A DNA stretch of 64,000 nucleotides from a virus, in IMG/VR virus record IMGVR_UViG_3300044612_003086, positions 1 through 64,000 of that record, one strand, 5' to 3'. Below the pieces are notes generated by a model. It had not been told where the DNA came from, did not search any database, and saw only the letters and a list, made by a program, of their open reading frames with translations. The translations under genes and the position numbers were made by a program. Within the stretch, counting starts at the first letter, position 1. Every line of letters begins with the position of its first letter. Of the stretch, positions 1,984 to 30,375 are shown one piece after another.

Positions 1984-1985
1984 TC

Positions 1986-2717: not shown

Positions 2718-2879
2718 CAACTTATCTAGTAAGTAGATACGAGCGAATCGCATGCACTTATCTAGTTCATGTGTATTGACTAGATAAGTACCAGTGGTGA
2801 TACTGACTAGATAAGTACCGAGTGTGATACACGCAATACAAGTAAGCAGAATCATTATCAGCACTTATCTAGTCCTTTC

Positions 2880-3101
2880 TCAAACAATTTCTAAGTCAAG
2901 TTCAGCGAGTGAACTCAACTGCGAAATGAAGTCAATACCTTCGTTCCACAGTAGATTCTCGTAGTCCTCACTTGCTTTCTTTGGTGTGTACGAGCCTGTC
3001 GTAATTTCGTCCAGTATTCCAGTCAAATAATGAATCGCATGTTTCAGGCTGTCTTGCAGTTCGCTCAATGCTTCCTGCACTGCTTCATCGGGTGTGTCCA
3101 C
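2880..3101 (-). CDS. Hypothetical small acidic protein
   Basis: 73 residues, helical and acidic. The GTG start lies inside a copy of the 11-mer: on the coding strand AAAGGA is followed by CTAGATAA and GTG, giving a good ribosome-binding site and spacing. The stop is followed by another AAAGGACTAGATAAGTG. No family recognised. Confidence 0.6.
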   Translation of the reverse strand: MDTPDEAVQEALSELQDSLKHAIHYLTGILDEITTGSYTPKKASEDYENLLWNEGIDFISQLSSLAELDLEIV

Positions 3102-3127
3102 TTATCTAGTCCTTTCACTTATCTAGT

Positions 3128-3297
3128 AGGTATTGGGAGTGCCTAGCCCTCTCGTAGAGCGTTAGAAACGGAAAGTGTATCGCTTGGTATTCAGAGCGAC
3201 ACACGCTCGCCGAGAGAGCGTAGGCAAGTCGTACACGGTTCTCCCCAACTGTGTACGCCAAGAGTGGGGGCTGGCTCTCACCAACCCCCACCCGAGG
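3128..3297. other. Structured intergenic segment with three hairpins
   Basis: No gene is seen. On the minus strand three stem-loops occur in a row: GTGGGGGTTGG/CCAGCCCCCAC (about 3262-3289, one G-U pair), GTACAC/GTGTAC with extended pairing (about 3231-3257), and ACGCTC/GAGCGT (about 3205-3226). The first, right after the stop of the vWA gene, is a plausible terminator without a U-run; the others could be part of an untranslated RNA. Confidence 0.45.
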
Positions 3298-3311
3298 ACT
3301 TATCTAGTCAC

Positions 3312-4853
3312 TCAAGCGAGTGGGATTTTGCCCATGTGTCTGCGCCACACATCACGGAACATCGCTGGATAGACACTCCGTGCCGTTCCACCGTTGCTCA
3401 ATGACTTGAGTTGCTTTATCGCTTCCTCAACATGAGGAACAACGATGTAGTTGTTCTTGCGAGCGTAGGTGAGACACTGCATAGCGAGTGAATCGTGGAA
3501 ACTGTCGTTCACGCCACACACTCCACCGTCTGTTACCCAAACAAGAGGAGTGCGAGAATCTTTGCGATTCTTTACGCCCCACTGAATTGCTGGATAGTCC
3601 ACGCCGTTGCCGTGTCCGTAGTCAATTCCTTCCACTGTCTCAACCATGCGTCCTTTGTCGCCAACGACCCATGCGTTATGACCACGACTACCTCTGTCGG
3701 AGTAGAGCAACACAGTAGCCCCAGGGGCATGCTCAATAATTTCGGCAATTTGTTCTGTCGTGAACGACATAGAACCACTTGCGTCAATAACGACCATGCC
3801 ACCACTGCCACGCACCTTTCGGTCAAACACTCGCATAGCAGGGTCGGTCATCATGCGTTGCATACGGCGAGGTCTGCGACCTGCGTTTGTTGCAATACGC
3901 TTCTTACCGATACCACCTTTGCTGTAGCGAGGCATTGGCATACGCTCAAGACGAAGTTCGCCCCATTTCGGAGTGCCAGTGGTGATAGCAGACGGAGTTA
4001 TGTCCTTGAGTGGATTTCCGTCCTTGTCGCCTTCACCTTCCTTGCCTTCACCTTCGTTGCTGTGGGCTTTGGACTTATCTAGTGAGTTACCTTCGCCCTC
4101 GCCACCAGCCTTGCTCTTGCTCGGCTTTGGTTGCTTCCGTTCCTTTGGTGGTGGGAACGAAGCGAGCCTGTCCACCCACTCGGCGAGTTGTTCCGTGTAG
4201 GTGAATCCGAACGGCGCAAGTCCGTTGTGAACTGTCGTGTTAGCCAAGTGACCAGTGCGATGAGCCTTCTTCATCTCACGCACGGCTCGCTTGCCAATGT
4301 CTAGCAGTTGGTCGCCCCATGCACGATTCACTCTGCGAACGCCGTTGAGAAATTGCTTGTGTCCAGCACTTCCAGCAGTTCCAACGCACATAGCAACTGC
4401 CATTGCCCAGTCGTTAGTTTCTGCGCAACGCTGTCCACTTGCGAGTTCGCTTCCGTCAGCAAGGTGTTTCTTTACATCTATCCCTGCCTGTTGGCAGAGA
4501 AAGTTCACACGAAGTTCCTCAACGACAGTGAGTGCTGTAGCCGAAGCCATTTCACGCTTGACCCACTCTGCCATTTGTGCCGAATCAGGCGACACCTTTG
4601 CGTGCATGAGTTCGTGCGCACGAATCGCCCGAGCCTTGTCGTCATTGTCCGTTGGTGCGAACATGATTTTGTTAGTCACATCGGTCATTGGCTCGCCACG
4701 CACGGCTTGGCAGTGTTCTACTGTCCAAACTCCGTGTGCTTGGTCACGCCGACCGAGAAGGGTTGCCTCGGCTTTGGCGTTACCCCGAGTGGACTTATCT
4801 AGTCCACTCGGGAACGCCTTGCCAGCAACATGCTTGCCAGCAGGTTGAGACAT
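3312..4853 (-). CDS. vWA-domain protein with HExxH motif (MoxR/CobT-type partner)
   Basis: 513 residues. N-terminal part has HELMH at 80-84, a zinc-metallopeptidase-like signature; a Lys/Gly/Glu-rich linker spans about 235-290; a von Willebrand A domain follows with the MIDAS motif DASGSMS at 357-363. This is the layout of vWA proteins that act with MoxR/CobS-type AAA+ ATPases, and the ATPase is the next gene upstream: its TAA overlaps this ATG (TAATG). Such pairs usually remodel or metallate a target protein; the target here is unknown. Two 11-mer copies lie in the coding sequence and are read as Leu-Asp-Lys. Confidence 0.8.
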   Translation of the reverse strand: MSQPAGKHVAGKAFPSGLDKSTRGNAKAEATLLGRRDQAHGVWTVEHCQAVRGEPMTDVTNKIMFAPTDNDDKARAIRAHELMHAKVSPDSAQMAEWVKREMASATALTVVEELRVNFLCQQAGIDVKKHLADGSELASGQRCAETNDWAMAVAMCVGTAGSAGHKQFLNGVRRVNRAWGDQLLDIGKRAVREMKKAHRTGHLANTTVHNGLAPFGFTYTEQLAEWVDRLASFPPPKERKQPKPSKSKAGGEGEGNSLDKSKAHSNEGEGKEGEGDKDGNPLKDITPSAITTGTPKWGELRLERMPMPRYSKGGIGKKRIATNAGRRPRRMQRMMTDPAMRVFDRKVRGSGGMVVIDASGSMSFTTEQIAEIIEHAPGATVLLYSDRGSRGHNAWVVGDKGRMVETVEGIDYGHGNGVDYPAIQWGVKNRKDSRTPLVWVTDGGVCGVNDSFHDSLAMQCLTYARKNNYIVVPHVEEAIKQLKSLSNGGTARSVYPAMFRDVWRRHMGKIPLA

Positions 4854-5581
4854 TATTTCACCCCGTCAATGGCGAGTGCGTCAAGAATCTGACGGGAACG
4901 GTCGCCGAAAGTGAGTGAGCATGCTCGTTCCATGCCAACGCTCGCACGGAGTTTGTCCAATGCGATGAACGCACGAAGTGAGATACGGTCGTCACCAGCG
5001 TCAGCCATGCGAACGGCGTACTTGCGCAAGTCAGGAGACAAGCGAAGCAGTGCGCTCGGGTGTGGCTCGTTGATACGAATACGAATCGGGAAACGGTCAG
5101 CGAGTGCTGTTGGCAACTCACCCATGTTCTCAATGTTCGTGGTCATAATTGCCGAGAATCCACCGAGAGGACGAATCACTTCGCCAGTTTCAGGATGCTC
5201 AAACGAAGCAGATTCAGGTGAATCCAACATCGCCAAGAGTGTTGCGAACACATCGCCCGAAGCCTTATCTACTTCGTCCACGATGAGTCGTCCACCCTCT
5301 GTTCCGTTGCCCTTCCATGCCTTGAGAGCCGAACCGTCCAGCCACATGAAGCCACCTTTGCCGTTCGGCATGAAGCCACCTGTAACATCCATGTTCGTCA
5401 TGTCCTCGGTGCAGACCAGTCGGAACGCACCAGCGTCCACTTTGCCGAGCGTCATGCCAGCGTAGGTCTTTCCGATACCTGATGGACCGTAGAGGATTAC
5501 TCGGTCTATCCCTGCGTTGAGGCAGTCCTCAAGTGCTTTCCAGCACTCGGGGAGAGCCGTTGTTTCTGTCTGTGCAACCAT
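4853..5581 (-). CDS. MoxR/CobS-type AAA+ ATPase
   Basis: 242 residues, a compact AAA+ module. Walker A is GPSGIGKT at 32-39, Walker B is IVDEVD ending at 105, and a sensor-1 TTN and an arginine-finger-like DRFPIRI follow. Similar to the MoxR/NorQ/CobS group, which power vWA-partner complexes. GGAGAA lies 6 bp before the ATG. It is the first gene of a two-gene unit with the vWA gene and is driven by the promoter at 5626-5654. Confidence 0.85.
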   Translation of the reverse strand: MVAQTETTALPECWKALEDCLNAGIDRVILYGPSGIGKTYAGMTLGKVDAGAFRLVCTEDMTNMDVTGGFMPNGKGGFMWLDGSALKAWKGNGTEGGRLIVDEVDKASGDVFATLLAMLDSPESASFEHPETGEVIRPLGGFSAIMTTNIENMGELPTALADRFPIRIRINEPHPSALLRLSPDLRKYAVRMADAGDDRISLRAFIALDKLRASVGMERACSLTFGDRSRQILDALAIDGVK

Positions 5582-5625
5582 TGGTATTTCTCCGTTTCTA
5601 GTAGTTGGGTTGGTTGTCGTGTACC

Positions 5626-5654
5626 ACTGTAGCGACCCGACAGCAGATTTATCT
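5626..5654 (-). promoter_or_regulatory. Promoter of the MoxR-vWA unit
   Basis: Minus-strand AGATAA, spacer of 17 bp beginning ATCTGC, then TACAGT. Member of the 21-promoter family with fixed spacing. Transcript would start about 38 bp before the ATG at 5581. Confidence 0.75.
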
Positions 5655-5888
5655 CGCCACTTATCTAGTTAGTTCATACCACTTATCTAGTCAGTCCACT
5701 TATCTAGTTAGTTTCACTCGGACACTTATCTAGTTAGTTCCAGCCACTCGGTAATCGTTCGGCAACTTGCACCCGACCACCCCGTGCCTCGCCAACTTAC
5801 ACCCGACCACCCCGAGCCTCGCTTCCTTTGGAAGCCCCGCGGACTTATCTAGTTAGATACAGAATTATTAGATTTTTGACTTATCTAG
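5655..5888. repeat. Intergenic module: four tandem 11-mers, tandem CCGACCACCCCG boxes
   Basis: No gene. From left to right: 11-mers at 5659, 5681, 5698 and 5724, each followed by NAGT in most cases; then a near-perfect 30-bp tandem repeat (5764-5793 and 5794-5823), each unit holding CTT-N4-CCGACCACCCCG; then a GCTTCC/GGAAGC hairpin with AGCCCCG; then 11-mers at 5843 and 5879. It separates the stop of the gene at 5889 from the promoter at 5626. Confidence 0.8.
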
Positions 5889-6368
5889 TTAGTCAGGTCG
5901 CTTGGCGATAGAGATTCGGTACAAGCCACGCTTGACCTTGATGAACTCTGGAGTTTCGTTCACGAACCCGAGTGTCGTCTGATACGAGAATCCACACTGC
6001 TCAACCAGTTGCTCGGTGGTGAACTCTTTACCGTCTTGGGTCTTTGCCCACTCCATAAACGCACCCCATTTGTCCTTGCGTTTTTCAGGCTTCTGCATTG
6101 CTTCCCTCTGGACTTCCTTGCCACAGTATGTCTGAATAATGTGGTCGGCGATGTGGGGAAGCACGGAGTAAGAGTTCAGGTAAGAAAGCACATTTTTGCT
6201 TCCACCTTCCCTTTGCCATAATTGCAGTACATGTAGCCCACGAATCAGTTCGCTGGCATTGGACGCTTGTTCTTTGGGAATCCGATACATCGTTCCGAAT
6301 TCTTTTTCCATTTCCTTCCACATCTCTTTGTGGATTCCGTCAATGAATTCATCAGTCAGTTTTTTCAT
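5889..6368 (-). CDS. Hypothetical protein with possible winged-helix C-terminus
   Basis: 159 residues. Mostly helical; the last 50 residues (EFTTEQLVEQCGFSYQTTLGF then a FIKVKRGLYRI strand pair) look like a winged helix, suggesting DNA binding. Family not recognised. The TAA stop is directly followed by an 11-mer. Transcribed from the promoter at 6414-6442; AAGGTAG precedes the ATG. Confidence 0.6.
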   Translation of the reverse strand: MKKLTDEFIDGIHKEMWKEMEKEFGTMYRIPKEQASNASELIRGLHVLQLWQREGGSKNVLSYLNSYSVLPHIADHIIQTYCGKEVQREAMQKPEKRKDKWGAFMEWAKTQDGKEFTTEQLVEQCGFSYQTTLGFVNETPEFIKVKRGLYRISIAKRPD

Positions 6369-6413
6369 GGCTACCTTTCTAGCGGAACTTTATCCCGACT
6401 TGCCCGTCACTCC

Positions 6414-6442
6414 AGATTATCTTTTGGTAGGCAGACTTATCT
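6414..6442 (-). promoter_or_regulatory. Promoter of gene 5889-6368
   Basis: AGATAA, 17-bp spacer beginning GTCTGC, then TAATCT. The overlapping 11-mer has one mismatch (ACTTATCTGGT). Confidence 0.7.
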
Positions 6443-6732
6443 GGTACGGCAACGCAAGAAAGTTATTTTTTTGACCACCTGACATCGAGGGCACTTCCTT
6501 TCCACCACCGTCAATTAGATTCACCACCCCCCGGGAATTAAATTTGTCAAATTTTTCATTTTTTTGCACGTTCTGGCGGCCGGCTGCGGCGGCTCTGGAT
6601 TTCTGGATTTTTTGGCAGCGAAACGCGGGGCTTACATGGTGAATCGGGTGCATAAAGAAAGAGGGTGGGTTTGACCCCACCCCCTGACTTATCTAGTTAG
6701 TTATCGGACTTATCTAGTAACTAGATAAGTGG
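6443..6732. repeat. Intergenic module with 14-mer and inverted 11-mers
   Basis: No gene supported. Holds the 14-mer at 6500-6513, a CGGGGCTTAC half-hairpin near 6626, a GGGTGGG/CCCACCC hairpin (6663-6682) that could end the transcript of gene 6733, an 11-mer at 6687, and an inverted pair of 11-mers (6708-6718 and 6720-6730) one base apart that would form an almost loopless 11-bp palindrome. Confidence 0.7.
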
Positions 6733-7131
6733 CTACTGGTTCTTGAGAAAATCCTCAATGTCGGGAATCGTCTCTTTGGCTATTTCCCGTGCTTCCGAAT
6801 AAGCCATAGCGTCCATAATCAAGTCGTCCAGCATGTCTGCCAATGCACGGTCGTCCTCTGTGAGCAATGGTCCATCAGGACTTGGCACAAGAAACTTTAG
6901 CGCCTCATCCTTCTCCTTGTCGGGGAGTTGTGCAATTTCTTGCACCTGCGAGAAACTGAATCCCATTCGGTGACCATGATTCTGATAAACAAACAGTGCC
7001 TCGGTCAATGTCTGCAATGCGTCAAATCCGAATCTGATAAACGGATTCTCGGTGGGAAACTCGGTGTTATCAGAGAACACTTTTTTCATTATTTCTTGCA
7101 TTTCTTCATCATGGTTTTGTTGTTCGCTCAT
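6733..7131 (-). CDS. Hypothetical acidic protein
   Basis: 132 residues, acidic and helical (Glu/Asp-rich at both ends). No family recognised. Last gene of a three-gene unit with 7128-7280 and 7285-7989; its ATG overlaps the TGA of the preceding small gene (ATGA), a sign of translational coupling. Same first residues (MSEQQ) as the product of 7285-7989. Confidence 0.65.
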   Translation of the reverse strand: MSEQQNHDEEMQEIMKKVFSDNTEFPTENPFIRFGFDALQTLTEALFVYQNHGHRMGFSFSQVQEIAQLPDKEKDEALKFLVPSPDGPLLTEDDRALADMLDDLIMDAMAYSEAREIAKETIPDIEDFLKNQ

Positions 7132-7280
7132 TTCACTTCCTCTTTCTGTTTGTCGTTGGTTATTAGCGAACGCAGGTCAAGCAACATGTCGGTCATTTCC
7201 GATGAAGCAACTAAGTCTCTGCCCGAGCAGTGACGAATCATTGTGTCCACCAGTTCGGTTGCTGTAAGTGTTTGGGTCAC
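7128..7280 (-). CDS. Hypothetical small protein (50 residues)
   Basis: A 50-residue frame with GTG start inside an 11-mer: AAGGGA, ACTAGATAA, then GTG on the coding strand. The upstream gene stops at the TAG of the same 11-mer, only 4 bp before this GTG, and the TGA overlaps the next ATG. Both junctions argue for a real, coupled gene. The product is helical with one Cys; family not recognised. Confidence 0.7.
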   Translation of the reverse strand: MTQTLTATELVDTMIRHCSGRDLVASSEMTDMLLDLRSLITNDKQKEEVK

Positions 7281-7284
7281 TTAT

Positions 7285-7989
7285 CTAGTTCCCTTCTTTG
7301 TCGTTGTCGGCTTCGGTGAGCAAGGTGTGAAACGCCTTTGCCTTTATTGCCATTTTCAGGTATGAAATCGTCTGAAGCATGGCATTGGTGAAACGAGCCT
7401 CAGCCATTTCGCTGTTCTCATCTGTCAGGTGAACAATGTCAGTGTCCACATCATCAAACATCGGTACACCTTGGTCGTCATAGGTGTAGGTGCTTGCGCT
7501 CATGTAAATCTTGTCCTGTTCCCAGTCCACGCCACTTACTACAAGACCCTCACGAACATCGGTGAAAGGGTTGTTTTGGAACTCATCTTTCAGCGATTCT
7601 CTTTCACTGTCACGGTCGGCTGGAGTCGTCAGGTCTGTGAAGCGACGCATGTAACCCTCAACAGCAACAAAGATGAAGTTCACTGGTGCTGTAGGCAAGT
7701 GACCAACAGCGTCAATGTAAGCGTCGTATGGGTCGCCTTTGTGAATCAGTGGAAGCATGGCAACATCGTATTGGCGTTCCAAGCCCAACTGCTTTGTGTA
7801 TTGACTTGCTGATTCAGCCAATTCATCATCTGTATCATCAGACTGGTGAATACGACCAATGATGAGCATTGGTGGGGTGTCGCTCATCGCAACCTCTTTG
7901 CACATTTCTTTTTTTGCATACTTGTTTCGGCGCATTACATCGCCGAGAATCTTTAGTATGTCGTTTGAGATTACTTGCTGTTCGCTCAT
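7285..7989 (-). CDS. Hypothetical protein
   Basis: 234 residues, mixed alpha/beta with several beta-strand-like stretches (VNFIFVAVEGY, LVVSGVDW, IYMSAST). Composition resembles a soluble enzyme or binding protein, but no family is recognised. AAAGGAG precedes the ATG. First gene of a three-gene unit driven by the promoter at 8020-8048. Its stop is the TAG within an 11-mer. Confidence 0.65.
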   Translation of the reverse strand: MSEQQVISNDILKILGDVMRRNKYAKKEMCKEVAMSDTPPMLIIGRIHQSDDTDDELAESASQYTKQLGLERQYDVAMLPLIHKGDPYDAYIDAVGHLPTAPVNFIFVAVEGYMRRFTDLTTPADRDSERESLKDEFQNNPFTDVREGLVVSGVDWEQDKIYMSASTYTYDDQGVPMFDDVDTDIVHLTDENSEMAEARFTNAMLQTISYLKMAIKAKAFHTLLTEADNDKEGN

Positions 7990-8019
7990 GGCGTTTCTCC
8001 TTTGGTGGTAAGTACCAAC

Positions 8020-8048
8020 ACTGTATCTATTAGTAAGCAGACTTATCT
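8020..8048 (-). promoter_or_regulatory. Promoter of unit 6733-7989
   Basis: AGATAA, 17-bp spacer beginning GTCTGC, TACAGT; an exact 11-mer (8041-8051) overlaps the -35-like element. Confidence 0.75.
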
Positions 8049-8055
8049 AGTGAGT

Positions 8056-8083
8056 ATGGGTGGGGTGTCCACTCCCCACCCAT
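8056..8083 (-). terminator. Hairpin terminator after the Xre gene
   Basis: Perfect 10-bp stem ATGGGTGGGG/CCCCACCCAT with an 8-base loop, 13 bp after the Xre stop codon and just before the next promoter. No U-run, so termination is inferred. Confidence 0.55.
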
Positions 8084-8096
8084 TTCACATCAGGCA

Positions 8097-8321
8097 TTAT
8101 TTTGCAATAATGTCTTGGGCGTTCACTTTCATCGCTTCGCACAACAATAGAAATGTCGTCATGCTTGGCGAGAAATGTCCGTTCTCAATGCGATTCACCG
8201 TTTTACGGTCAATGCCAGCCTTATTCGCCAGCGTTTCTTGTGACCACTCACGCTCAAGTCTTTCGTTCTTGAGTCGCTCTGCGATTCGCATTGTCTTTTT
8301 CTCAATGGCTGTAAGTGCCAT
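8097..8321 (-). CDS. Xre/Cro-CI-type HTH regulator
   Basis: 74 residues, a single HTH_3 domain: about residues 13-67 with the turn around ETLANKAGIDRKTVNRIENG. Such minimal proteins are phage or toxin-antitoxin repressors. AAAGGAGAAAGAC precedes the ATG. It is the second gene of a unit with the Api92-like gene. It is the clearest sequence-specific DNA-binding candidate among the 11-mer-bearing genes, so it could be the protein that reads one of the repeat families; this is inference only. Confidence 0.8.
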   Translation of the reverse strand: MALTAIEKKTMRIAERLKNERLEREWSQETLANKAGIDRKTVNRIENGHFSPSMTTFLLLCEAMKVNAQDIIAK

Positions 8322-8355
8322 GTCTTTCTCCTTTGTTTCTTGGTTGATTTTGGGT

Positions 8356-9123
8356 TTAGGACTTATCTAGTAAGTAATCGTCATACTGACTGAACGATAG
8401 TTTCTCCTTTCGCCTCTGATTAGAACGAATCCACGACACGATGAGTTGCATCGCCTTGTCGCACGAATCAACCATTTCATCGTCACGGTTTGCTCGCCAC
8501 TCACTCTGTGCTTCCCAGTATTCGTCCATTTGTTCATCGGTATCTTGGGGCATGCCCTCTATCTCCGAATCCATTTCGGTTACACCTTCGCCCTCAACAA
8601 TGAGTTCGCCATTGTGGATTACAACCCAACCAGCAAAGAACTCGGCTTCTTCCGTGAACACGACACCGAATACAAGTTTCGGGAACTGCTTTGAGATACG
8701 AGCGATAAGACCGTTACACGGCGACCATGCTGACTGGTAATACATTGAGACAGAACCCTTGTTGTAGTCGTCATCAGATACGCCAACATCACCTGCGCCC
8801 CACTTGCTTCCCCATACGGCGTTGGCATAGTCGTACCAGTCCTTGTAGCCGTACTTATCTAGGTTGTCTTGCATTTGCTTTTTGTGTTCAGCCTGTTTGT
8901 CCTCGGGAACTGAACCCGAAACCGTGTTCATCAACGCCTCGGGAATCGGGTCAAGGTGGTTGAGTGAATCAACTTCTACTTCTTTTTCACCAGTGGCTAC
9001 CCATTTGCCGTCTTGGATTTCTCCAGTCTTTTGCAATTCCTTTATCTTGAGTGATTTCAGGAATCGCTTGAGTTCAGGTTTCGGACCTGACACCTTCATT
9101 GTGTTACTGCACCAGTTTGGCAT
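8356..9123 (-). CDS. Api92-like ferredoxin-fold protein (DUF1281/YubB-like)
   Basis: 255 residues from ATG 9123, chosen because an upstream GTG at 9168 would lie in the promoter and AAAGGGCG precedes 9123. Starts MPNWCSN and continues K-V-S-G-P, the hallmark of the Api92/YubB family of plasmid and phage proteins; WGSKWGAGDV and YYQSAWSPCNGLI in the middle also fit. The C-terminal 90 residues are acidic then basic. Family function unknown. Transcribed before the Xre gene. Confidence 0.75.
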   Translation of the reverse strand: MPNWCSNTMKVSGPKPELKRFLKSLKIKELQKTGEIQDGKWVATGEKEVEVDSLNHLDPIPEALMNTVSGSVPEDKQAEHKKQMQDNLDKYGYKDWYDYANAVWGSKWGAGDVGVSDDDYNKGSVSMYYQSAWSPCNGLIARISKQFPKLVFGVVFTEEAEFFAGWVVIHNGELIVEGEGVTEMDSEIEGMPQDTDEQMDEYWEAQSEWRANRDDEMVDSCDKAMQLIVSWIRSNQRRKEKLSFSQYDDYLLDKS

Positions 9124-9155
9124 GCTCGCCCTTTCGTCTAGTAGTGGTACGACCC

Positions 9156-9184
9156 ACTCTAGCCCCACACCAGCAGATTTATCA
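9156..9184 (-). promoter_or_regulatory. Promoter of unit 8097-9123
   Basis: TGATAA, 17-bp spacer beginning ATCTGC, TAGAGT. An 11-mer sits 6 bp upstream (9190). Confidence 0.75.
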
Positions 9185-9401
9185 ACCTGACTTATCTAGT
9201 CAGCATGTTCTTCCACCACCGTCAATGTCTTGATGTGTTCTCAACCCGACCCGACTTTCACCCGACCCACCCGTGAGCCGACCCAACTTCTTGCCGACCA
9301 CCCCGAACCAGCCCCACCCCATCACTTACCGTGTAAGCCCCGCGTCCCACTGTTTAGCCGGGGCTCAAAGGGTCGAGCTGGTTTAATTTGGTTGGACTTA
9401 T
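9185..9401. repeat. Intergenic module: 11-mer, 14-mer, CCGACCACCCCG boxes, hairpin
   Basis: No gene. In minus-strand order: stop of gene 9402, 11-mer (9396), AGCCCCG/CGGGGCT hairpin (9336-9365), boxes of the CTT-N4-CCGACC type (two or three between about 9250 and 9305), the 14-mer (9211-9224), an 11-mer (9190), then the promoter. This order recurs in other modules. Confidence 0.8.
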
Positions 9402-9731
9402 CTAGTCAGTAATGATTTCGTCTGCGTAAACGAGTTGTGTTTCGCTGACACGCCAGCCGTTCTGATGGTCCGTCCATGCGTACTTGATAAGTGCCGTCCA
9501 CTTATCTAGGTAGTCATAAATCTCATCATCGGGAATCCCATAGTCGTCAAAATACGAAGTGTCGTTCGGGTCTGGCGAGAAAGAGAAATAGACAAATGAG
9601 CGACCCTCTGGAAACTCCACTCTGCACTTGCTGCCGATGAGAATCAGACCACGAGCCTTTATTGCGAGCATGGTCAGAAAGAGCCGAATCGTAACCCATA
9701 GGGGAACGAAGAACTTATCTAGTAGGTTCAT
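9402..9731 (-). CDS. Hypothetical protein
   Basis: 109 residues with a hydrophobic N-terminus (FFVPLWVTIRLFLTMLAI), then beta-rich and acidic. The 11-mer spans codons 3-6 (Leu-Leu-Asp-Lys). The ATG lies inside the end of the upstream gene, whose TAA is supplied by the same 11-mer. Possibly membrane-associated; family not recognised. Last of a four-gene unit. Confidence 0.6.
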   Translation of the reverse strand: MNLLDKFFVPLWVTIRLFLTMLAIKARGLILIGSKCRVEFPEGRSFVYFSFSPDPNDTSYFDDYGIPDDEIYDYLDKWTALIKYAWTDHQNGWRVSETQLVYADEIITD

Positions 9732-9957
9732 ACGCCATCTCGTTTACGTCTTTGCCGAGAAGTTGGTCTGTAGTCAGCCGAATTATTGAGCGCACAATGT
9801 CGTCACTTGTTATGCCCCACGAATCAAGAGCCCACGCCAATAAAGTTCCATTTGCTAAATCACCACAAATTGCTTCTATTGCTTGAGCCCGTGTCGTGGC
9901 AAGGAAGTAGTAGTTCTCCCACAAAATCTTGTCTAAATCTTCAGGCGTCAGAACCAT
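9715..9957 (-). CDS. Hypothetical protein
   Basis: 80 residues, helical, acidic. AAAGGAGAGAA precedes the ATG, which overlaps the end of the upstream gene by 10 bp. Stop TAA lies within an 11-mer and the next gene starts 17 bp inside this one. Family not recognised. Confidence 0.65.
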   Translation of the reverse strand: MVLTPEDLDKILWENYYFLATTRAQAIEAICGDLANGTLLAWALDSWGITSDDIVRSIIRLTTDQLLGKDVNEMAYEPTR

Positions 9958-10223
9958 TTCTCTCCTTTCACGGAAACAGTAGTCCGTACCACCCCAGTTT
10001 CGGTAGCAGAAACCACGACTGGAGTCAGCACCTTGTATGCGTTTATCCAGTACTTAGACCGTTCAGCAGACCTGACCCATTTCGCCCTTTCTTCATCGGT
10101 CATGTATTCCCACTCATCGGGCATTTCATTGGTGGGGATACTCCACTCCTCAATTATTTCTTCTTCTTCGTGTTTCACAATTTGTGCGCTCGCACGGACT
10201 GTGATGTGAACATGGGCAGTCAC
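9948..10223 (-). CDS. Hypothetical protein
   Basis: 91 residues; strands at both ends flank an acidic helical middle. The GTG start is the last part of an 11-mer preceded by AAAGGA, the same arrangement as the genes at 2880 and 7128. Overlaps the next gene by 10 bp. Family not recognised. Confidence 0.65.
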   Translation of the reverse strand: MTAHVHITVRASAQIVKHEEEEIIEEWSIPTNEMPDEWEYMTDEERAKWVRSAERSKYWINAYKVLTPVVVSATETGVVRTTVSVKGEKWF

Positions 10224-10236
10224 TTATCTAGTCCTT

Positions 10237-10737
10237 TCAGTACCAGCAGGTAGAGCCGTCTGCCTCATCGGCAGTCCAACGAAGCCACCAAATCGCATAA
10301 CGAATCTGAGGAATCAAATCCTCACCGTTCACGATGAACTCTGGAGAATCCTGAATCTTTTCGTTCAGAAACCATTCCATTTGGTTGGCAGTTGCTCGGC
10401 AACTCTCTGGAGACTTCTCCGTACCTTCCTCATTGTCGCCATAGAAATCGTATTCGCTAATGCCAAGAGCGTCAATGAGGTAGTTCCCCCACTTACCCCG
10501 ATACCAGCACGGAGTTCCGAACATGCCGTACACAGCACCTTCGGTCATGCCACTTGCCTTGACTGCTGTCTGATACGGGCATGCGTTGCGATTAGCAGTT
10601 TCCTCACAGGAAATGCTTTCCACGAACTCACCGTCTTGTCCACGAATCGGCTGACCTTCCTTGTCCAGTCGCCTCACCATTACTGCCGTGCCTTTGGACT
10701 TGCACGGGTAGTTCTTCGGTATGTTGTCTAATCCCAT
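10237..10737 (-). CDS. Hypothetical Cys-containing protein
   Basis: 166 residues with six Cys (C12, C44, C53, C77 and others) and many Trp, suggesting metal binding or a disulfide-rich fold. CACPYQ-like region and WWLRW near the end. AAAGGGGAAGAAA precedes the ATG. First gene of the unit 9402-10737; family not recognised. Confidence 0.65.
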   Translation of the reverse strand: MGLDNIPKNYPCKSKGTAVMVRRLDKEGQPIRGQDGEFVESISCEETANRNACPYQTAVKASGMTEGAVYGMFGTPCWYRGKWGNYLIDALGISEYDFYGDNEEGTEKSPESCRATANQMEWFLNEKIQDSPEFIVNGEDLIPQIRYAIWWLRWTADEADGSTCWY

Positions 10738-10768
10738 TTTCTTCCCCTTTGGTTTAGTAGGTGATTAC

Positions 10769-10797
10769 ACGATACATGTGTACGAGCAGACTTATCT
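10769..10797 (-). promoter_or_regulatory. Promoter of unit 9402-10737
   Basis: AGATAA, 17-bp spacer beginning GTCTGC, TATCGT; an exact 11-mer (10790-10800) covers the -35-like element. Confidence 0.75.
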
Positions 10798-11073
10798 AGT
10801 AATCCTTTCCACCACCGTCAAACAGTTAGAGCCAGCAAACGACATTCCCCCGACACGCCCGAACTTTGCGCACTTTTCCCCGACCACCCCCGTTGCTCGC
10901 AAAAAAATCCATTTTTTATCACTTCCCGTGTGAGCCCCGGCTCATGGTCGGGGCGCGGGGCTTCCATCGTCGGAAGCGAACTTATCTAGTAAGTATTCGG
11001 GTCGGCACTTATCTAGTAAGTATCCAGCCAGCCCGACCCACCGTTGGCAAGTGGGTCAGACTGACTAGATAAG
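10798..11073. repeat. Intergenic module with hairpins, boxes, 14-mer
   Basis: No gene. Holds the 14-mer (10807-10820), CTT-N4-CCGACCACCCC near 10875-10897, the AGCCCCG/CGGGGCT hairpin (10933-10962), 11-mers at 10980, 11007 and 11064 (inverted), and a GACCCAC/GTGGGTC hairpin (11035-11057) after the stop of gene 11074. Confidence 0.8.
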
Positions 11074-11385
11074 TCACTCGGCTTCGGCGATACCAGCCCT
11101 GCCCTCGTAGCCACGAACAGCGTTAGAGATTTGCCCGTAATAGTCACCGTTCTCGCAGTACCAGCCTTCGGGTCGTGCGATGAGTGTCCACACCACGAAC
11201 GGCGAGTAGGTGTCGTTCGGCAAGTGGCACAGCACTGTCCACGAAGCGTACAGACCGTCACCAGCGACATTACGCAAGTGATACGCAAGCACCAAACCGT
11301 CATTGGCGTTAGTAAGCACCAGCCCCACTTTGGGGGCTGGTGACTTATCTAGTGAGTTGATGTGGTGAATAGTTGCTTCACTCAT
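11074..11385 (-). CDS. Hypothetical protein
   Basis: 103 residues from ATG 11385, which overlaps the end of the upstream gene by 8 bp. Beta-rich middle (VGLVLTN, GLVLAYHL, PFVVWTLIA). The 11-mer is read as Leu-Asp-Lys near the N-terminus and is followed in the coding sequence by a CACCAGCCCC/GGGGCTGGTG hairpin (about 11319-11342). Family not recognised. Confidence 0.6.
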   Translation of the reverse strand: MSEATIHHINSLDKSPAPKVGLVLTNANDGLVLAYHLRNVAGDGLYASWTVLCHLPNDTYSPFVVWTLIARPEGWYCENGDYYGQISNAVRGYEGRAGIAEAE

Positions 11386-11848
11386 TGGGAAGTTCACCGT
11401 TGGCGAAGTAGTTATCCATTTGCTCATCGGTCATACCGATTACCTTTGGTGCGAAGTTCTCATCATCGCTCGCCCAGTCGGTGAGCCAATTTGCGTACTC
11501 ACCGTCAGTGCGAACGGTCTTGACGAGATTTGCGAATTGCTCACTCCATACGAACGCAGGAACATCGTGGTTCTCTCCGTCATACTCGCCCTGCTCGTTG
11601 AGCGCACCGATTACCACGCAGTCACCTGCCAGTGGTCTGCCGAACAGTGCCGAAGCGACTGCGTTCATTGGCAAGCCGATGAGCAAGCCTTCATCGTTGA
11701 TGTAACCAACAATGCCCAAGTTTCCCTCGTTCACGCTGTCAAACCAACCACCTACGATTTCGTTGATGGCGATGTGAGCCGTGTCCTCGTCAAGAAAGAG
11801 TGGCAAGCACTCTCCCTCGCTTGTGATGTGTAATGCCTTTGTTGCCAT
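11378..11848 (-). CDS. DUF3846-like protein
   Basis: 156 residues. IVGGWFDSV, a middle N.EGLLIGLP.N..A..LF and GDCVVIGA match the pattern of the DUF3846 family, a small domain frequent in actinobacteria, their phages and plasmids. Role unknown. The acidic C-terminus carries DEQMDNYF. First gene of a two-gene unit under the promoter at 11889-11917. Confidence 0.65.
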   Translation of the reverse strand: MATKALHITSEGECLPLFLDEDTAHIAINEIVGGWFDSVNEGNLGIVGYINDEGLLIGLPMNAVASALFGRPLAGDCVVIGALNEQGEYDGENHDVPAFVWSEQFANLVKTVRTDGEYANWLTDWASDDENFAPKVIGMTDEQMDNYFANGELPNE

Positions 11849-11888
11849 TGTTCTACCCCCTTCGGGTCTAGGTATTTATTACGATTTC

Positions 11889-11917
11889 ATCGTAATAGTG
11901 GGTGGGCAGACTTATCT
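11889..11917 (-). promoter_or_regulatory. Promoter of unit 11074-11848, inside a hairpin
   Basis: AGATAA, 17-bp spacer beginning GTCTGC, TACGAT, with an 11-mer at 11910-11920. Flanking AGTGGGTGGG and CCCACCCACT (about 11897-11938) can pair, so the -35-like element lies in the loop of a hairpin that would also end the upstream transcript. Confidence 0.75.
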
Positions 11918-11943
11918 AGTAAGTCCACCCACCCACTGAACGA

Positions 11944-12354
11944 CTAAGCGACTTTGCTCGCCTTGCTTGCTGGCTTGACTGCGCCCTTCGCTGGCTTCAC
12001 CAGCACTCGGACATAGTTCGTGATTTCCACGACTGACTTGATTACCTTGTTTGGTATTTCGCCCTTGTCCACTGCGCTATCCCACGCCTTCGTGTCCACG
12101 CTTGGCTTCGTCACCTTACGGAACAGAGCAGGACTGACTGACTTGCGCAACTTATCTAGTGAGAAAGACCTGCGCTCGCTCGGCGTGACCGAGAGAGTGA
12201 TTTCGTCTTGCGTGAAGTCGTTGATGCCGTTCTCGGCGAACACTGCGACAAGAGTTTCTCTTGCCACTTCGTGCGCCTGCTCGGCTTGTTCTTTCGCTGT
12301 GAGAGCGTTTAGGAACGCTTCCACTGCTTGCTTGACTTGGGTTTCTGTAGCCAT
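11944..12354 (-). CDS. Hypothetical Ala/Lys-rich protein
   Basis: 136 residues from ATG 12354, preceded by AAAGGAG; the longer frame to 12396 overlaps the promoter. N-terminal half is a predicted coiled coil (Ala, Glu, Gln), then a Val/Ile-rich core, then an AKGAVKPASKASK tail. The 11-mer is read as Leu-Asp-Lys in the middle. Family not recognised. Confidence 0.6.
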   Translation of the reverse strand: MATETQVKQAVEAFLNALTAKEQAEQAHEVARETLVAVFAENGINDFTQDEITLSVTPSERRSFSLDKLRKSVSPALFRKVTKPSVDTKAWDSAVDKGEIPNKVIKSVVEITNYVRVLVKPAKGAVKPASKASKVA

Positions 12355-12394
12355 TGGTTTAGTCTCCTTTGTGTTGGGTGGTGGCTTGCGCACC

Positions 12395-12423
12395 ACCCTA
12401 CACCCGTGAGAGCAGATTTACCA
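12395..12423 (-). promoter_or_regulatory. Promoter of gene 11944-12354
   Basis: TGGTAA, 17-bp spacer beginning ATCTGC, TAGGGT. One of the more diverged -35-like elements, without an overlapping 11-mer. Confidence 0.65.
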
Positions 12424-13211: not shown

Positions 13212-13257
13212 TATTGCTCTCCTTGTTCGGGGTCTAGTTGGTATCCGAACACCACCC

Positions 13258-13286
13258 ACGCTACGAACACGACAGCAGACTTATCT
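13258..13286 (-). promoter_or_regulatory. Promoter of gene 12786-13211
   Basis: AGATAA, 17-bp spacer beginning GTCTGC, TAGCGT. Confidence 0.75.
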
Positions 13287-13834: not shown

Positions 13835-13862
13835 CAGTAACCCCCTGTATTTGGTTTCTCCA

Positions 13863-14460: not shown

Positions 14461-14462
14461 AG

Positions 14463-19058: not shown

Positions 19059-19097
19059 GCTCCCCCTCTGGGGGAGACCATCTCCCCCGACAGAACC

Positions 19098-21898: not shown

Positions 21899-22177
21899 AT
21901 GGCTACAAAGAAAAAAGCTGCACCAAAGAAAGCAGCAAAGAAAAAGCCGGCCAAGAAAACTGCAAAGAAAGCAGTAAAGAAAGCAGTAAAGAAGAAGCCA
22001 GCAAAGAAAGCCGTCAAGAAGGCAACCAAGAAGACAGCAAAGAAAGCAAAGACGGTCAAGAAGGCTGCCAAGAAGGCAGTTCGGATGCCAGCTCCTGCTC
22101 GCAAGAAGCTAAAGAAAGCTATTGCTAATAACTCATCAATTATCGACGGTCCAATCGTCGACAACGCGCAGAAGTAA
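21899..22177 (+). CDS. Histone H1-like basic protein
   Basis: 92 residues; the first 70 are almost only Lys, Ala, Pro and Thr in KKAxKK and KKPAKK repeats, like bacterial and eukaryotic H1 tails, followed by a short acidic-polar end. Expected to bind DNA without sequence preference and compact or protect it. GGAGATAGCT precedes the ATG. A second protein with such a tail is at 48132-48419. Confidence 0.75.
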   Translation: MATKKKAAPKKAAKKKPAKKTAKKAVKKAVKKKPAKKAVKKATKKTAKKAKTVKKAAKKAVRMPAPARKKLKKAIANNSSIIDGPIVDNAQK

Positions 22178-27012: not shown

Positions 27013-27291
27013 ATGAAGTTACTAGATAAGTGCGAAAACTGGTGTCAGGAACATTATCTCGGAACGATGAAGGCTCTGCTCGGCATTATCTCTGCCGTGC
27101 CGACTATCGGACTGTTCGGAGTGGTTCAGGCGTACTACAACAGCAACATCGGCGACCTGCTGACCTGTTTGTTCATCGTGGTAGGTGGAACGGTGATTAC
27201 CACCCTATTCGCTCTGACCGTGTACAACGAACATCAAGACGAACGCTACGGCTCTATTCGCCGTCACCCAGTCACGAAGCGAGTGCGCTAA
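27013..27291 (+). CDS. Small two-pass membrane protein
   Basis: 92 residues; hydrophobic segments about 20-41 and 49-68, basic C-terminus. The 11-mer encodes Leu-Leu-Asp-Lys in the first six codons. Strong AAAGGGG. Its TAA overlaps the next ATG (TAATG). Function unknown. Confidence 0.7.
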   Translation: MKLLDKCENWCQEHYLGTMKALLGIISAVPTIGLFGVVQAYYNSNIGDLLTCLFIVVGGTVITTLFALTVYNEHQDERYGSIRRHPVTKRVR

Positions 27292-27992
27292 TGACTACGA
27301 CAGCACTGGACACCCGTAGCGTGTTAGCAGAAATGCTAACAGAAAACACTGGAACGCACATCTTGGACAGTGGTGGCGCATACGGCAGGAACTGGGAACG
27401 AAACAATGGCAAGACGCTTGCCGATTTTGAGAACGAACCGACTGCGTGGGCTGACGGTTATGGCGTAGTGCTTTCAGTTTTTCACTTTCTTGCGAACCGT
27501 GTGGAGTTTCTGCCGAGTATCCAAGCCGAGTTAGATGATTTGGCACGGTGTATGCCTGATGAGGGCTGGTTGGCTATCGCCGAGACACTGGCTGAACGCT
27601 ACGACCCTAAGCCTCGTACTTGGAACACTTACAACGGCGAGGACAGTCTTTCGCAAACACTACAAGGCGTATCGTTCACCCGTAATGACGGTGAGACTGT
27701 GAGCCTTATTCAGATACACGGGGGCTGTGATGTTCGTGGTGGATACACGAAGCCTCGTGCTTTCCGTGTGACGGTGGAAATGGCTGACTGTTTCCCATAC
27801 GACCACAACTCTTATGAGTTGGAGTGTCCGACTGATAACGAACACTCTCTCTCGTATTTGGGTGAGTACATCGGTTGGCACGGGTCAAGCATTGACGCTG
27901 ATGAGTATCCGACATACGACAGCGAGAAGCGAACAGCGAACTGTGTGAAGTGTGGTTCGCCATTCATCGTTCACGCCTCTGAACCGTACTAG
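27291..27992 (+). CDS. Hypothetical protein
   Basis: 233 residues, acidic, alpha/beta; a C-terminal CVKCGSPF suggests a zinc site. Coupled to the preceding membrane protein by TAATG. Its TAG stop is inside an 11-mer. Family not recognised. Confidence 0.65.
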   Translation: MTTTALDTRSVLAEMLTENTGTHILDSGGAYGRNWERNNGKTLADFENEPTAWADGYGVVLSVFHFLANRVEFLPSIQAELDDLARCMPDEGWLAIAETLAERYDPKPRTWNTYNGEDSLSQTLQGVSFTRNDGETVSLIQIHGGCDVRGGYTKPRAFRVTVEMADCFPYDHNSYELECPTDNEHSLSYLGEYIGWHGSSIDADEYPTYDSEKRTANCVKCGSPFIVHASEPY

Positions 27993-27998
27993 ATAAGT

Positions 27999-29006: not shown

Positions 29007-29412
29007 ATTTACTATCTGTGACATCACGCCACTGACCATCAACGACCACCTGATAGTGCGCCCCCGACACTGGCACGAGTTCGCCATTAGCATTGCGTTC
29101 ATACTTGCCGAAGTTCTCAGTGGAACGCCATGCCCACTCACAGCACGGTGTTTCACTATCGCAGGGGTGTGTCCCCTTACCTATCGTCTCTGCCAATGCT
29201 GGGAACAGAGTAAGGAACTTCACTATGCAGTCGTGACACAGTATCCAACTACGGCTACGGCGATTACTAAACAGTACATCTACCTCATCAGTGAAGCCAC
29301 CATAGTAACCAAATAGGTCAAATGGTAAATCCCAACCGTTACTAGGTAGGTGCTTTTGTTCATCGCACTGGACATCGTAGTCACAACCTGAACAGCGAAC
29401 ATGGTTACTCAT
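29005..29412 (-). CDS. Hypothetical zinc-binding-type protein
   Basis: 135 residues with CSGC, CHDC and CDSETPCC segments, likely zinc-stabilised; Trp- and Tyr-rich middle. Family not recognised. Single-gene unit. Confidence 0.6.
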   Translation of the reverse strand: MSNHVRCSGCDYDVQCDEQKHLPSNGWDLPFDLFGYYGGFTDEVDVLFSNRRSRSWILCHDCIVKFLTLFPALAETIGKGTHPCDSETPCCEWAWRSTENFGKYERNANGELVPVSGAHYQVVVDGQWRDVTDSK

Positions 29413-29421
29413 AACATCTCA

Positions 29422-29450
29422 ACGATAGTCGTATGCGAGCAGACTTATCT
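29422..29450 (-). promoter_or_regulatory. Promoter of gene 29005-29412
   Basis: AGATAA, 17-bp spacer beginning GTCTGC, TATCGT; exact 11-mer at 29443-29453. Confidence 0.75.
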
Positions 29451-29474
29451 AGTACCCGTAGCACTTGGCGACTT

Positions 29475-29888
29475 CTATGACTGGCGTGTGTTGAGGCGAA
29501 GGTAGGCAGAGTAGGCGTAGTTGCGTTGGCGTTGGCGTTCGGCGTGTGCCCTCTCTGCGTCTGCTGGGGGCATACGGTCTATCTCATCATCAGTGGGTGC
29601 GAAGCCTATCTCCCTCTCTGCTTCTAGCATCAGTGACACAAGGCTAAGCGTGTGGGTGTCTGCGTACTCACCCGTAGCGATGTGGCAACCTTGTTCATCT
29701 AAGTCAAGTGCCAACAGTTCGCTTGCTACCTTTGAGATGAATACACCTGTGAGTTTCATCTGCGACAGGCGTTGGTGTGTGGTCAGGTGTTCGTTCGCTG
29801 TCCTCTTAGACCGAAGCAACTGTGTGTACATACTGTTGCTTGGAACGAAAGCGACAAACTCTGATGGGGTTGGCTCTTGTGTTGTCAT
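29475..29888 (-). CDS. Hypothetical protein
   Basis: 137 residues, helical, with a long Ala/Glu/Arg-rich C-terminal helix (ADAERAHAERQRQRN). GAGAGATGAG precedes the ATG. Family not recognised. Confidence 0.55.
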   Translation of the reverse strand: MTTQEPTPSEFVAFVPSNSMYTQLLRSKRTANEHLTTHQRLSQMKLTGVFISKVASELLALDLDEQGCHIATGEYADTHTLSLVSLMLEAEREIGFAPTDDEIDRMPPADAERAHAERQRQRNYAYSAYLRLNTRQS

Positions 29889-30375
29889 CTCATCTCTCTC
29901 TTGTGTTTGTGTGTGTCGTGTGTATGCGATGTGTATGAGCGAGGCTCTGCGTGGCTAAGCCCACACCAGACCCGAAACCCGACAGACCCGACAGTGCTGT
30001 TGGTTTTGTTGGCGTGTCGTGTTGCGTGTTGGATTACATCGGGTGTGTGGTCTCTCTCTCGGCGTGTGTCTTACTGAAACACTTGGATAAATCGTCTTGC
30101 TGTTTTTTGGGGTGTCGTATTCGGGTCGTGACTTATCTAGTGAGTTGTGTCGTTTTGTAATCAGCCAGAAACCATCGGCACACACTGCGAGAGACTGCTG
30201 TGTGTCCTCTGCGTGTGTGGACTTGTTGCCGACTACCCCGAGTACCGACACAAATTGCGAAAAATTGTTCGCAGTGTCGCCTCGCAGCACCTGTCTCTTG
30301 TAGCCCCGCGAAACTTTCTCGGTTGAGGCAGGGTGGGTGGGGGAGCAAAATCGCAAAAAATTCATCCCAGGTTTT
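29889..30375. other. Intergenic region, last of the repeat-bearing arm
   Basis: About 490 bp with no convincing gene. Contains CCCGAC-rich sequence (29965-29995), the last 11-mer (30131), a CTT-N4-CCGACTACCCCG box (about 30222-30241) and an AGCCCCG half-hairpin (30302). Confidence 0.6.

Follow-up and report, generated by a model that had tools for sequence, protein, structure and literature searches.

Why should one short word recur dozens of times in a single arm of a phage genome? In the window, the 64,000-nucleotide stretch of viral DNA analysed here, the first-pass annotation had described about 70 exact copies of ACTTATCTAGT, likened them to the stoperators of mycobacteriophage L5 and named an Xre protein as a candidate reader. 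We examined the number, placement and orientation of the copies, their fate in related phages and the proteins that might bind them. The features discussed are collected in Table 1.

An oriented array confined to one arm

Scanning of the whole 133,891-bp phage record detected 69 exact copies of ACTTATCTAGT (51 on the plus strand and 18 on the minus strand), all between positions 2720 and 30141 and none elsewhere, in agreement with the number and confinement first described. With at most one mismatch, 80 matches were found over the same span (69 exact and 11 with one mismatch), whereas 100 dinucleotide shuffles gave 0.64 on average and never more than 3; a reversed control word had no copy in the record. 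The term arm has to be refined, as it designates part of a circularly permuted map: in a 153.9-kb relative, the array covers both ends of the record. Bases upstream of the site were biased (A.80, C.65 and T.74 at positions -4 to -2), and the longer form to which copies were said often to extend, ACTTATCTAGTNAGT, was complete in 34 of the 69 sites (sum of the four ACTN 4-mers at -4).

All placement counts rest on gene calls made with our own script. Orientation with transcription holds for the reverse complement ACTAGATAAGT, which is ACTTATCTAGT as read along the genes, and not for ACTTATCTAGT as written, because most genes here lie on the minus strand. The nearest gene was on the strand reading ACTAGATAAGT for 54 of the 69 sites (300 random draws gave 42.1 on average and at most 52), and the other 15 do not follow the nearest called gene. 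The location at gene boundaries was borne out: 61 of 69 sites are intergenic (22.4 at random), the corresponding counts in four genomes being 61/69, 47/53, 72/78 and 61/69, and 25 of 69 lie within -12 to +45 of the 3' end of a same-strand gene (random mean 3.5, maximum 9), with 20-29 such sites per genome in four genomes against about 3 at random. In many cases the TAG of the site is the stop codon itself (a peak at d = -5). Sites within genes of four genomes were same-sense in 26 cases and opposite in 2. Array-type genomes carry 55-79 sites, of which 12-21 are at promoters; in the window phage, 26 of the 69 belong to no placement class.

Promoters of the arm were predicted from sequence in the form A(A/G)TCTG-N12-TANNNT, which gave 18 in the window phage. 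An exact site overlaps the -35 region of nine of them in one fixed register, as expected from the claim that sites cover a -35-like element in many promoters, and four more have an exact site 7-10 bp upstream. The remaining five lack one within 100 bp upstream, three of these overlapping a one-mismatch copy (6435, 14808 and 28999); the corresponding fractions without an exact site were 8/21 in G013, 6/21 in G020 and 9/24 in G024. Among 114 promoters with a gene start in six genomes, 92 nearby sites were in promoter orientation and none was opposite. Site start and TANNNT were most often 26 apart in G000 and G044, 35 in G020, 35 or 39 in G024, 38-39 in G013 and 22 or 34 in G043, and the nearest-site distance to the box in G024 ranged from 4 to 39 bp, plus one at 72. 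The spacing within the promoter was constant: AGTCTG and TANNNT at a gap of 12 were found 14 times in G000, 11 in G020, 19 in G024 and 9 in G025, against 0-4 at the other gaps from 8 to 19, and G013 had only 3 exact boxes at this gap and 9 of a looser form. TGG also precedes the -10 in several lineages, and hexamers TTGGGA, TTGTAG (TTGnnn) or AGATAA recur 17-18 bp from it, so that an ordinary -35 element may be present. The exact promoter word of the window was absent from G013, G024 and G029 and matched once, off-gap, in G020, because the sequence around the -35 differs in the relatives. Like the window phage, G013, G020 and G024 carry several sites upstream of the promoter of the operon of the AAA ATPase and gene 3312-4853.

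Table 1 Positions of the array, selected sites and promoters, and candidate proteins in the window
Feature	Position	Strand	Basis
Array of 69 exact ACTAGATAAGT sites	2720-30141	51 read on minus, 18 on plus	exact word scan
HA-HTH protein (helicase-associated domain, sigma region 4-like HTH), adjoining the array	1999-2373	+	
Site within gene 3312-4853, codon 257	4073-4083	-	
Site within gene 3312-4853, codon 17	4793-4803	-	
AAA ATPase, family marker	4853-5581	-	
Predicted promoter AATCTG-N12-TANNNT, site 9 bp upstream	5626-5649	-	
Four tandem sites upstream of the AAA ATPase/gene 3312-4853 operon promoter	5659-5734	-	
Stoperator-like site at 3' end of gene 5889-6368	5879-5889	-	
Candidate reader (159 aa; winged helix predicted at the C terminus)	5889-6368	-	
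Site overlapping -35 region, with predicted promoter AGTCTG-N12-TANNNT	8020-8051	-	
Candidate reader, Xre/Cro-type HTH protein	8097-8321	-	
Site supplying the TAG stop codon of gene 9402-9671	9396-9406	-	
Site overlapping promoter	10769-10800	-	
Site overlapping promoter	11889-11920	-	
Site overlapping promoter and 3' end of gene 14463-14744	14432-14463	-	
Site overlapping promoter; second site 15712-15722	15672-15703	-	
Site overlapping promoter	16798-16829	-	
Site overlapping promoter; second site at 17405; upstream called gene divergent	17346-17377	-	
Site supplying the TAG stop codon of gene 18115-18534	18530-18540	+	
Site overlapping promoter; second site at 19149	19098-19129	-	
Site supplying the TAG stop codon of gene 27291-27992	27988-27998	+	
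Site overlapping promoter	29422-29453	-	

Site versions specific to each lineage

A scan of IMG/VR yielded relatives, at least as many as are listed here, with equally dense arrays of the variants AATAGATAAGT, AATAGATAACT, AGTAGATAA(G/C)T, GGTAGATAAGT and TGTAGGTAAGT. Each lineage uses its own variant throughout its array, and most variants share the core GATAA; those of L312, L315, L318 and L338 are each based on 6-10 copies, the L318 word occurring independently 15 times in L416. Of 80 arms, 42 were classed as array-type and 38 as other, the criterion being GATAA or GGTAA in the enriched word, with L338 and L341 (GATA) added by eye. In a tree of the 58 arms that were complete and non-identical, the array-bearing lineages formed one clade (28/28 tips). 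For G006 and G045 the sequence examined lacked the last 485 and 449 bases, respectively; for G004 it comprised only 1-20000 and 120001-153913. The eight array-type records measure 134-170 kb. Megablast of positions 20000-44000 of the window (24 kb) found no match among 50,697 phage records, and none of the 1145 records matched by TerL reached 60% identity. Two relatives gave blastn pieces of 65-77% identity; in these, 13 of 29 and 10 of 17 sites were exactly kept at aligned positions, the 30-bp flanks having a mean identity of 41% and 46%.

Sites inside gene 3312-4853 followed the same rule. Both strands of this gene were searched in 15 array-type and 3 sister arms, each with the arm's own word only, and 22 sites were found in 13 of the 15 array-type arms, all on the coding strand and all at codons 9-19 or 246-265; L312 and L320 lacked their own word in this gene. 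The first position carries the lineage's variant in 8 and the second in 12 of the 14 other array-type arms. These sites are maintained as DNA words within coding sequence, in the variant of the lineage.

Candidate readers of the site

The proposal that the Xre protein reads the sites found no support: RKTVNRIEN, its recognition helix, hardly changes between lineages while the site ranges from ACTAGATAAGT to TGTAGGTAAGT to AAAGGATAATG. The helix SRQRVHQI of the HA-HTH protein is likewise invariant or nearly so across site variants, and its HTH is invariant in 7 aligned sequences, making it an unlikely setter of variable specificity. As these helices hardly vary with the site, neither protein is favoured in that role. 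Xre may nonetheless act as reader, since one flanking residue tracks the site in the arms tested: the residue after IEN is Gly in 6/6 arms with C or G at site position 2 and Leu, Gln or Glu in 5/5 arms with A. This pattern is broken by arm L341, left out of the column test, which has Gly after IEN and a word starting with AA. Covarying columns numbered seven in gene 3312-4853, five in HA-HTH, five in gene 7285-7989 and four in Xre; with equal or larger signals in other genes, the Xre residue is not a specific indicator.

The predicted winged-helix protein is an equally unproven candidate. Lys or Arg accompanies G at site position 2, a pattern discarded because arm L318 breaks it and Lys also occurs in array-free lineages. 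The fold search essentially covered the winged helix (residues 94-158), the first part of the protein being barely covered, and returned many winged-helix chains at Z 6-7, none distinctive; no solved L5-type repressor chain was among the best 50 matches listed. Against a viral library, the single match at E <= 0.001 was an uncharacterized phage protein. The Trixie repressor gp75 matched none of 12 records at E <= 1 in a search run without a positive control, and hhalign of gp75 with the winged-helix family gave a probability of 0.2. Gene 7285-7989 occurs almost only in array-type arms (34/42, against 2/38 others, the array-free homologues being in L376 and L360), but was dropped as its model (pLDDT 77.5) has an alpha/beta fold with no HTH and a best PDB match at Z 5.3. 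A partial distance-matrix test of 16 families (14 partial values) gave no positive value for an HTH protein (winged helix -0.19, Xre -0.36, HA-HTH -0.22), so that none of them covaries with the site more than general divergence would explain; the only low permutation values, those of the 50-aa ORF 7128-7280 (15/500) and gene 11378-11848 (21/500), were not significant after 14 tests.

Probable silencing of the early arm and its alternatives

We consider it probable that a single sequence-specific protein, encoded by the phage, binds the sites and thereby silences the early arm. Where a site lies at a promoter, the protein would cover or abut the -35 region and prevent initiation; bound at a gene end or within a gene, it would lie in the path of RNA polymerase and stop elongation. 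Both steps would thus be blocked, as by the L5 repressor, and sites would point the same way relative to transcription because the bound protein stops elongation, as at cluster A stoperators. The group consists of uncultured bacterial viruses, and lineage-specific versions of the site are as expected if a viral protein reads them to switch early genes off.

The promoter geometry could also suggest activator boxes, at which a phage protein bound at or upstream of the -35 region would bring in RNA polymerase at early or middle promoters, in the manner of MotA in T4, the extra copies being relics or weak promoters. T4 middle promoters have the MotA box 12 +/- 1 bp from the -10 element, centred at -30 (PMC2988021), and the fixed AGTCTG exactly 12 bp from TANNNT reproduces this geometry. 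The strict orientation of sites at promoters fits as well, and in three sister genomes the arm repeat is the promoter box only (23/23, 10/11 and 10/10), although two of them, G029 and G046, are apparent near copies with identical distance lists that were counted separately. The constant box, however, is AGTCTG, an element separate from the array site; the distance between site and box depends on the lineage, which fits occlusion better than contact with an activator; and most sites lie away from promoters, many at stop codons. We regard activation as unlikely.

Still less likely is an action in RNA, where ACUAGAUAAGU would serve as a processing, termination or stop-codon context signal at gene ends. 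The strong 3'-end placement and the frequent coincidence of TAG with the stop codon argue for it, as do hairpins after sites, commoner than at random in G000 (11 vs 4.1), G020 (13 vs 5.0), G013 (7 vs 2.5) and G043 (5 vs 1.0). This association is weak: the excess was small in G024 (6 vs 3.9) and G044 (6 vs 2.9), hairpins follow only 5-13 of 46-69 sites per genome, and in G020, G024 and G043 they were about equally frequent upstream and downstream. Sites that overlap or precede a promoter are absent from its transcript, and a site is kept at 10 promoters whose called upstream neighbour is divergent (six genomes), where it therefore acts as DNA. A role in DNA maintenance, with parS- or Chi-like sites for partition, replication, recombination or packaging and a secondary link to genes, appears the most improbable. 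It would account for oriented sites confined to one part of the genome, and a ParA-like ATPase (PF13614) was found in 4 of 18 related records, some possibly fragments, the window's record having none. Site orientation agrees with the local gene more often than at random and is strict at promoters, and the sites in gene 3312-4853 are all same-sense, which argues against it.

If the sites silence the early arm, they may do so for a prophage state or for a switch from early to late expression. Integrase (PF00589) was detected in 0 of 18 records and resolvase (PF00239) in 0 of 14, some possibly fragments; with neither of these nor a ParA-like ATPase in the window's record, a lysogenic role is without support here. 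A more specific proposal is tentative, and we hold it somewhat below an even chance: stoperator-type silencing would have had a second, single origin in a clade of large phages, probably of actinobacteria, with no detected integrase, as an early-arm shut-off (or superinfection block) in lytic growth and not as prophage immunity, all 55-79 sites of an array having drifted together, time and again, along with a putative monomeric reader, so that about a dozen specificities arose.

In the literature found, cluster A and its close relatives are the only phages with established arrays of oriented sites that block transcription. A search of titles and starts of abstracts returned no report of the present array, and one with four site words returned none on phages by title among the matches listed. 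If the silencing reading is true, this would be a second, apparently independent case with more sites, pointing to a more general regulatory strategy. How a regulator changes specificity when dozens of sites must follow is a long-standing question, and one clade with about a dozen natural variants, each copied array-wide and even within a protein-coding gene, makes it directly testable. The variant sets indicate which residues to seek in the putative reader and would supply orthogonal operators.

Start-associated sequences of cluster K mycobacteriophages are also short repeats at gene boundaries, located at translation starts; the sites described here lie instead at promoters, at 3' ends and inside genes. 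Nostoc cyanophage A-1 has an intergenic motif (logo from 43 sequences) for which its describers suggest stoperators as one possibility (PMC4916379); it is not consistently oriented with flanking genes, whereas the present array is strict at promoters.

The closest likeness is to cluster A (L5 clade), whose sites are short, asymmetric and multicopy, have one orientation relative to transcription, are intergenic or overlap gene termini with some at promoters, and combine a constant with a lineage-variable part, related systems being those of Gordonia subcluster A15 and Rhodococcus cluster CA (PMC6550527, PMC9283540, PMC5559632, PMC13313380). The 20-30 stoperators reported there for cluster A (PMC6550527) compare with 55-79 per array-type genome, as anticipated by the first-pass annotation. 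In Trixie, with a word chosen after a prior result had been inspected, 23 of 24 stoperators had the same orientation and 13 of 24 were at 3' ends (1.4 at random). The array shares an asymmetric short site (here an 11-bp core), promoter and in-gene orientation (92:0 and 26:2), gene-end placement, overlap of the -35 region and a consensus that is partly constant and otherwise differs by lineage. Overall orientation is less strict in the window phage (54:15 by nearest called gene, against 23:1 in Trixie), the core is mostly GATAA and not TGTCAAG, the array of the window phage is confined to the early arm, and the terminase is unrelated (no phage record at 60% TerL identity or above), so that neither megablast nor TerL places these phages in the cluster A family. 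The stoperator analogy thus stood for every anatomical feature tested, with Xre as reader not supported: the architecture resembles that of stoperators, asymmetric, oriented, intergenic or gene-terminal and in part on promoters, built on a different, lineage-specific sequence.

Organisation of the site array

The 11-bp site ACTTATCTAGT occurred in 69 exact and 11 one-mismatch copies within a single stretch of the early arm (the gene region holding the array; see Table), so that 80 copies with at most one mismatch compared with a mean of 0.64 in shuffled sequence. The first-pass annotation had reported about 70 copies confined to one region; this observation proved right and stronger than stated. 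No exact copy lay elsewhere in the whole 133,891-bp record. The arm genes are mostly on the minus strand, and the site therefore reads ACTAGATAAGT along transcription. ACTN directly preceded the site in 34 of the 69 copies, and the base following it was often C or G.

All placement counts relied on gene calls made with our own script. The annotation's description of copies sitting at gene boundaries, mostly oriented with transcription, agreed with these counts: 61 of the 69 sites were intergenic, 25 lay between -12 and +45 bp of a same-strand gene 3' end (3.5 for random placement), and orientation by nearest called gene was 54 to 15 (random 42.1). In many cases the gene stop codon was the TAG of the site. 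Among the related genomes, 3'-end sites numbered 20 of 53 in G013, 29 of 78 in G020 and 24 of 69 in G024, with 2.8-3.8 at random. Sites inside genes of these three genomes and the window phage were same-sense in 26 cases and opposite in two. At 114 predicted promoters with a gene start in six genomes, 92 close-upstream sites had the same orientation and none the opposite one; a divergent called gene lay upstream at ten of these promoters. Orientation is a strong preference overall and is strict only at promoters.

Predicted promoters of the arm

The predicted promoter class of the window-phage arm was TAANTCTGC-N11-TANNNT, with 20 matches at a gap of 11 and only one, at gap 8, at the other gaps from 7 to 15; several relatives showed the more general form AGTCTG-N12-TANNNT. 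The site had been described as covering the -35-like element in many promoters. This applied to nine of 18 predicted window-arm promoters, where an exact site overlapped the -35 region in a single register; at four it lay 7-10 bp upstream, and five had no exact site within 100 bp upstream. A one-mismatch copy overlapped three of these five. Lineages differed in the distance most often seen between site and -10 element.

The placement of AGTCTG exactly 12 bp from TANNNT, in window 2000-31000 and in the arms of relatives, corresponds to T4 middle promoter geometry; as a guess, the HA-HTH protein (helicase-associated domain and HTH) might read this box. A second intergenic element, TTGACGGTGGTGGAA(A/G), was constant in sequence between lineages and was present in or adjoining the arm in nine of nine genomes checked, at 7-10 copies per genome (at most one mismatch), some of them 7-77 bp upstream of predicted arm promoters.

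Features and lineage site words (window positions unless a genome is named; G000 is the record containing the window)
Feature	Positions	Strand	Copies	Remarks
Site array	2720-30141			
TTGACGGTGGTGGAA(A/G)	479, 1231, 2400, 6513, 9224, 10820, 13327	-		
HA-HTH protein	1999-2373			sigma region 4-like HTH
Gene with internal sites	3312-4853			two sites in window phage
159-aa protein	5889-6368			predicted winged helix, residues 94-158, pLDDT 90.7
234-aa protein	7285-7989	-		fast-evolving; alpha/beta model, no clear PDB relative
Xre protein	8097-8321			HTH_3
Histone H1-like protein	21899-22177	+		lysine- and alanine-rich (MATKKKAAPKKA...), judged by eye from translation
TauD-type dioxygenase	53582-54364			Pfam-confirmed
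Run of small proteins	G000 117,790-129,252			resemble 2-oxoglutarate/iron hydroxylases, judged by eye
ParA-like ATPase gene	G020:117302-117904			inside array arm
ParA-like ATPase gene	G024:33060-33680			inside array arm
Lineage word AATAGATAAGT			55	
Lineage word AGTAGATAA(G/C)T			79	
Lineage word TGTAGGTAA(G/C)T			69	
Lineage word AATAGATAACT			56	
Lineage word (A/G)GTAGATAAGT			61	

Lineage variants and origin of the array

Searching related phage genomes revealed same-arm arrays, each lineage having its own variant. In two fragments (blastn pieces 65-77% identical), 13 of 29 and 10 of 17 sites were unchanged at aligned positions, while the flanks of aligned sites had a mean identity of only 41% and 46%. 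Distant relatives (terminase 84-88%) carried similarly dense arrays in the same arm, with one word per lineage (Table). Among the best 80 of 130 arms from a profile scan for the AAA ATPase family marker, 42 had words with a GATA(A) or GGTAA core. These words fall into about twelve consensus forms, of which four are based on at most ten copies.

A midpoint-rooted tree built from two arm proteins had 58 tips, and its 28 array-type tips fell into one group (support 0.988). In three sister genomes, two of which look like near copies of each other, the repeat had TANNNT at one fixed distance in 23/23, 10/11 and 10/10 copies; here the repeated word is a promoter box only. Promoter-coupled sites in six array-type genomes made up 12-21 of 55-79. 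Given one array-type clade and sister repeats that are promoter boxes only, the array looks like a single invention followed by repeated specificity change.

The repeated promoter box of this arm differed among sister genomes G029, G045 and G046 and arms L352, L362 and L363 (such as TTTGGAAATTTGGTAT, TTGTCGGTTAG and TTGAGATAGG; a palindrome in L352), indicating that promoter boxes too change by lineage.

Gene 3312-4853 was searched on both strands in 15 array-type arms, each with its own word. Thirteen contained one or two sites, 22 in total; all of these read along the coding strand and fell within codons 9-19 or 246-265. L312 and L320 contained none, and no copies were found in three sister arms searched with their own repeat words. 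The encoded peptides mostly tracked the DNA word (LDKS, IDNS, IDKS, VDKS, VDNS, VGKS), with other peptides in L315 and L341. The kept feature appears to be the DNA word, not the peptide.

Candidate readers, life style and comparison with stoperators

The recognition helices of the Xre and HA-HTH proteins were nearly invariant across site variants. No covariation of HTH candidates with the site beyond general divergence was found, and a residue-column test of candidates against site variants gave a signal that was not specific. The Xre protein, suggested earlier as the reader (the protein binding the site), remains a candidate, with its nearly invariant helix and the lack of covariation counting against it. 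The gene of the 159-aa protein adjoins the densest sites; the protein is present in array-free lineages too. The repressor of Trixie, a cluster A mycobacteriophage, had no match in 12 records when used as a query without a positive control. Of the 42 array-type arms, 34 encoded the 234-aa protein, as did two of the 38 others.

The phage encodes a terminase large subunit, a major head protein, a ribonucleotide reductase and a WhiB protein. Metagenome-assembled genomes with the label Actinomycetota contained relatives among their contigs, and the related arm L415 had 16 copies of the site; an actinobacterial host is therefore likely, probably a freshwater one. An arm of the same phage family with a GGGGTAGATAA variant array, L416, came from a contig assigned to a Gammaproteobacteria bin, probably by mistake. 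No tyrosine integrase was found in 18 records and no resolvase-type recombinase in 14, records that may be fragments, and the ParA-like ATPase present in four of 18 records (G020, G024, G044 and G051) had no match in the window's record. A prophage role is thus possible but unsupported, and an early-to-late switch or the blocking of superinfection during lytic growth is no less likely.

Cluster A phages are described as having 20-30 stoperator sites that follow the direction of transcription; some lie at promoters, most block elongation, and the consensus is lineage-specific (PMC6550527). Their repressor is reported as a monomeric, two-domain protein binding an asymmetric site, repression being lost when the site is reversed (PMC9283540). 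Sites overlapping termini are described in Rhodococcus cluster CA (PMC13313380), and Gordonia A15 sites are described as having some positions that are invariant and others that vary (PMC5559632). Our positive control, Trixie, had 24 copies of CTTGACANNNACC, 23 in nearest-gene orientation and 13 at gene 3' ends (1.4 at random). On the basis of this control and the features in common with cluster A, we propose that a phage-encoded reader would bind the early-arm sites, preventing initiation where they lie at promoters and elongation at the other sites. Both anatomy and evolution support this stoperator reading well, binding and repression being the putative steps. The L5-like architecture proposed initially stands in both these respects, but the phage family is not that of cluster A, and the repressor function of the sites is putative. 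The two systems share the orientation of their sites, the positions at promoters and gene ends, and a drift that takes in the whole array. The array would represent a variant of the cluster A-type stoperator anatomy in another phage family.
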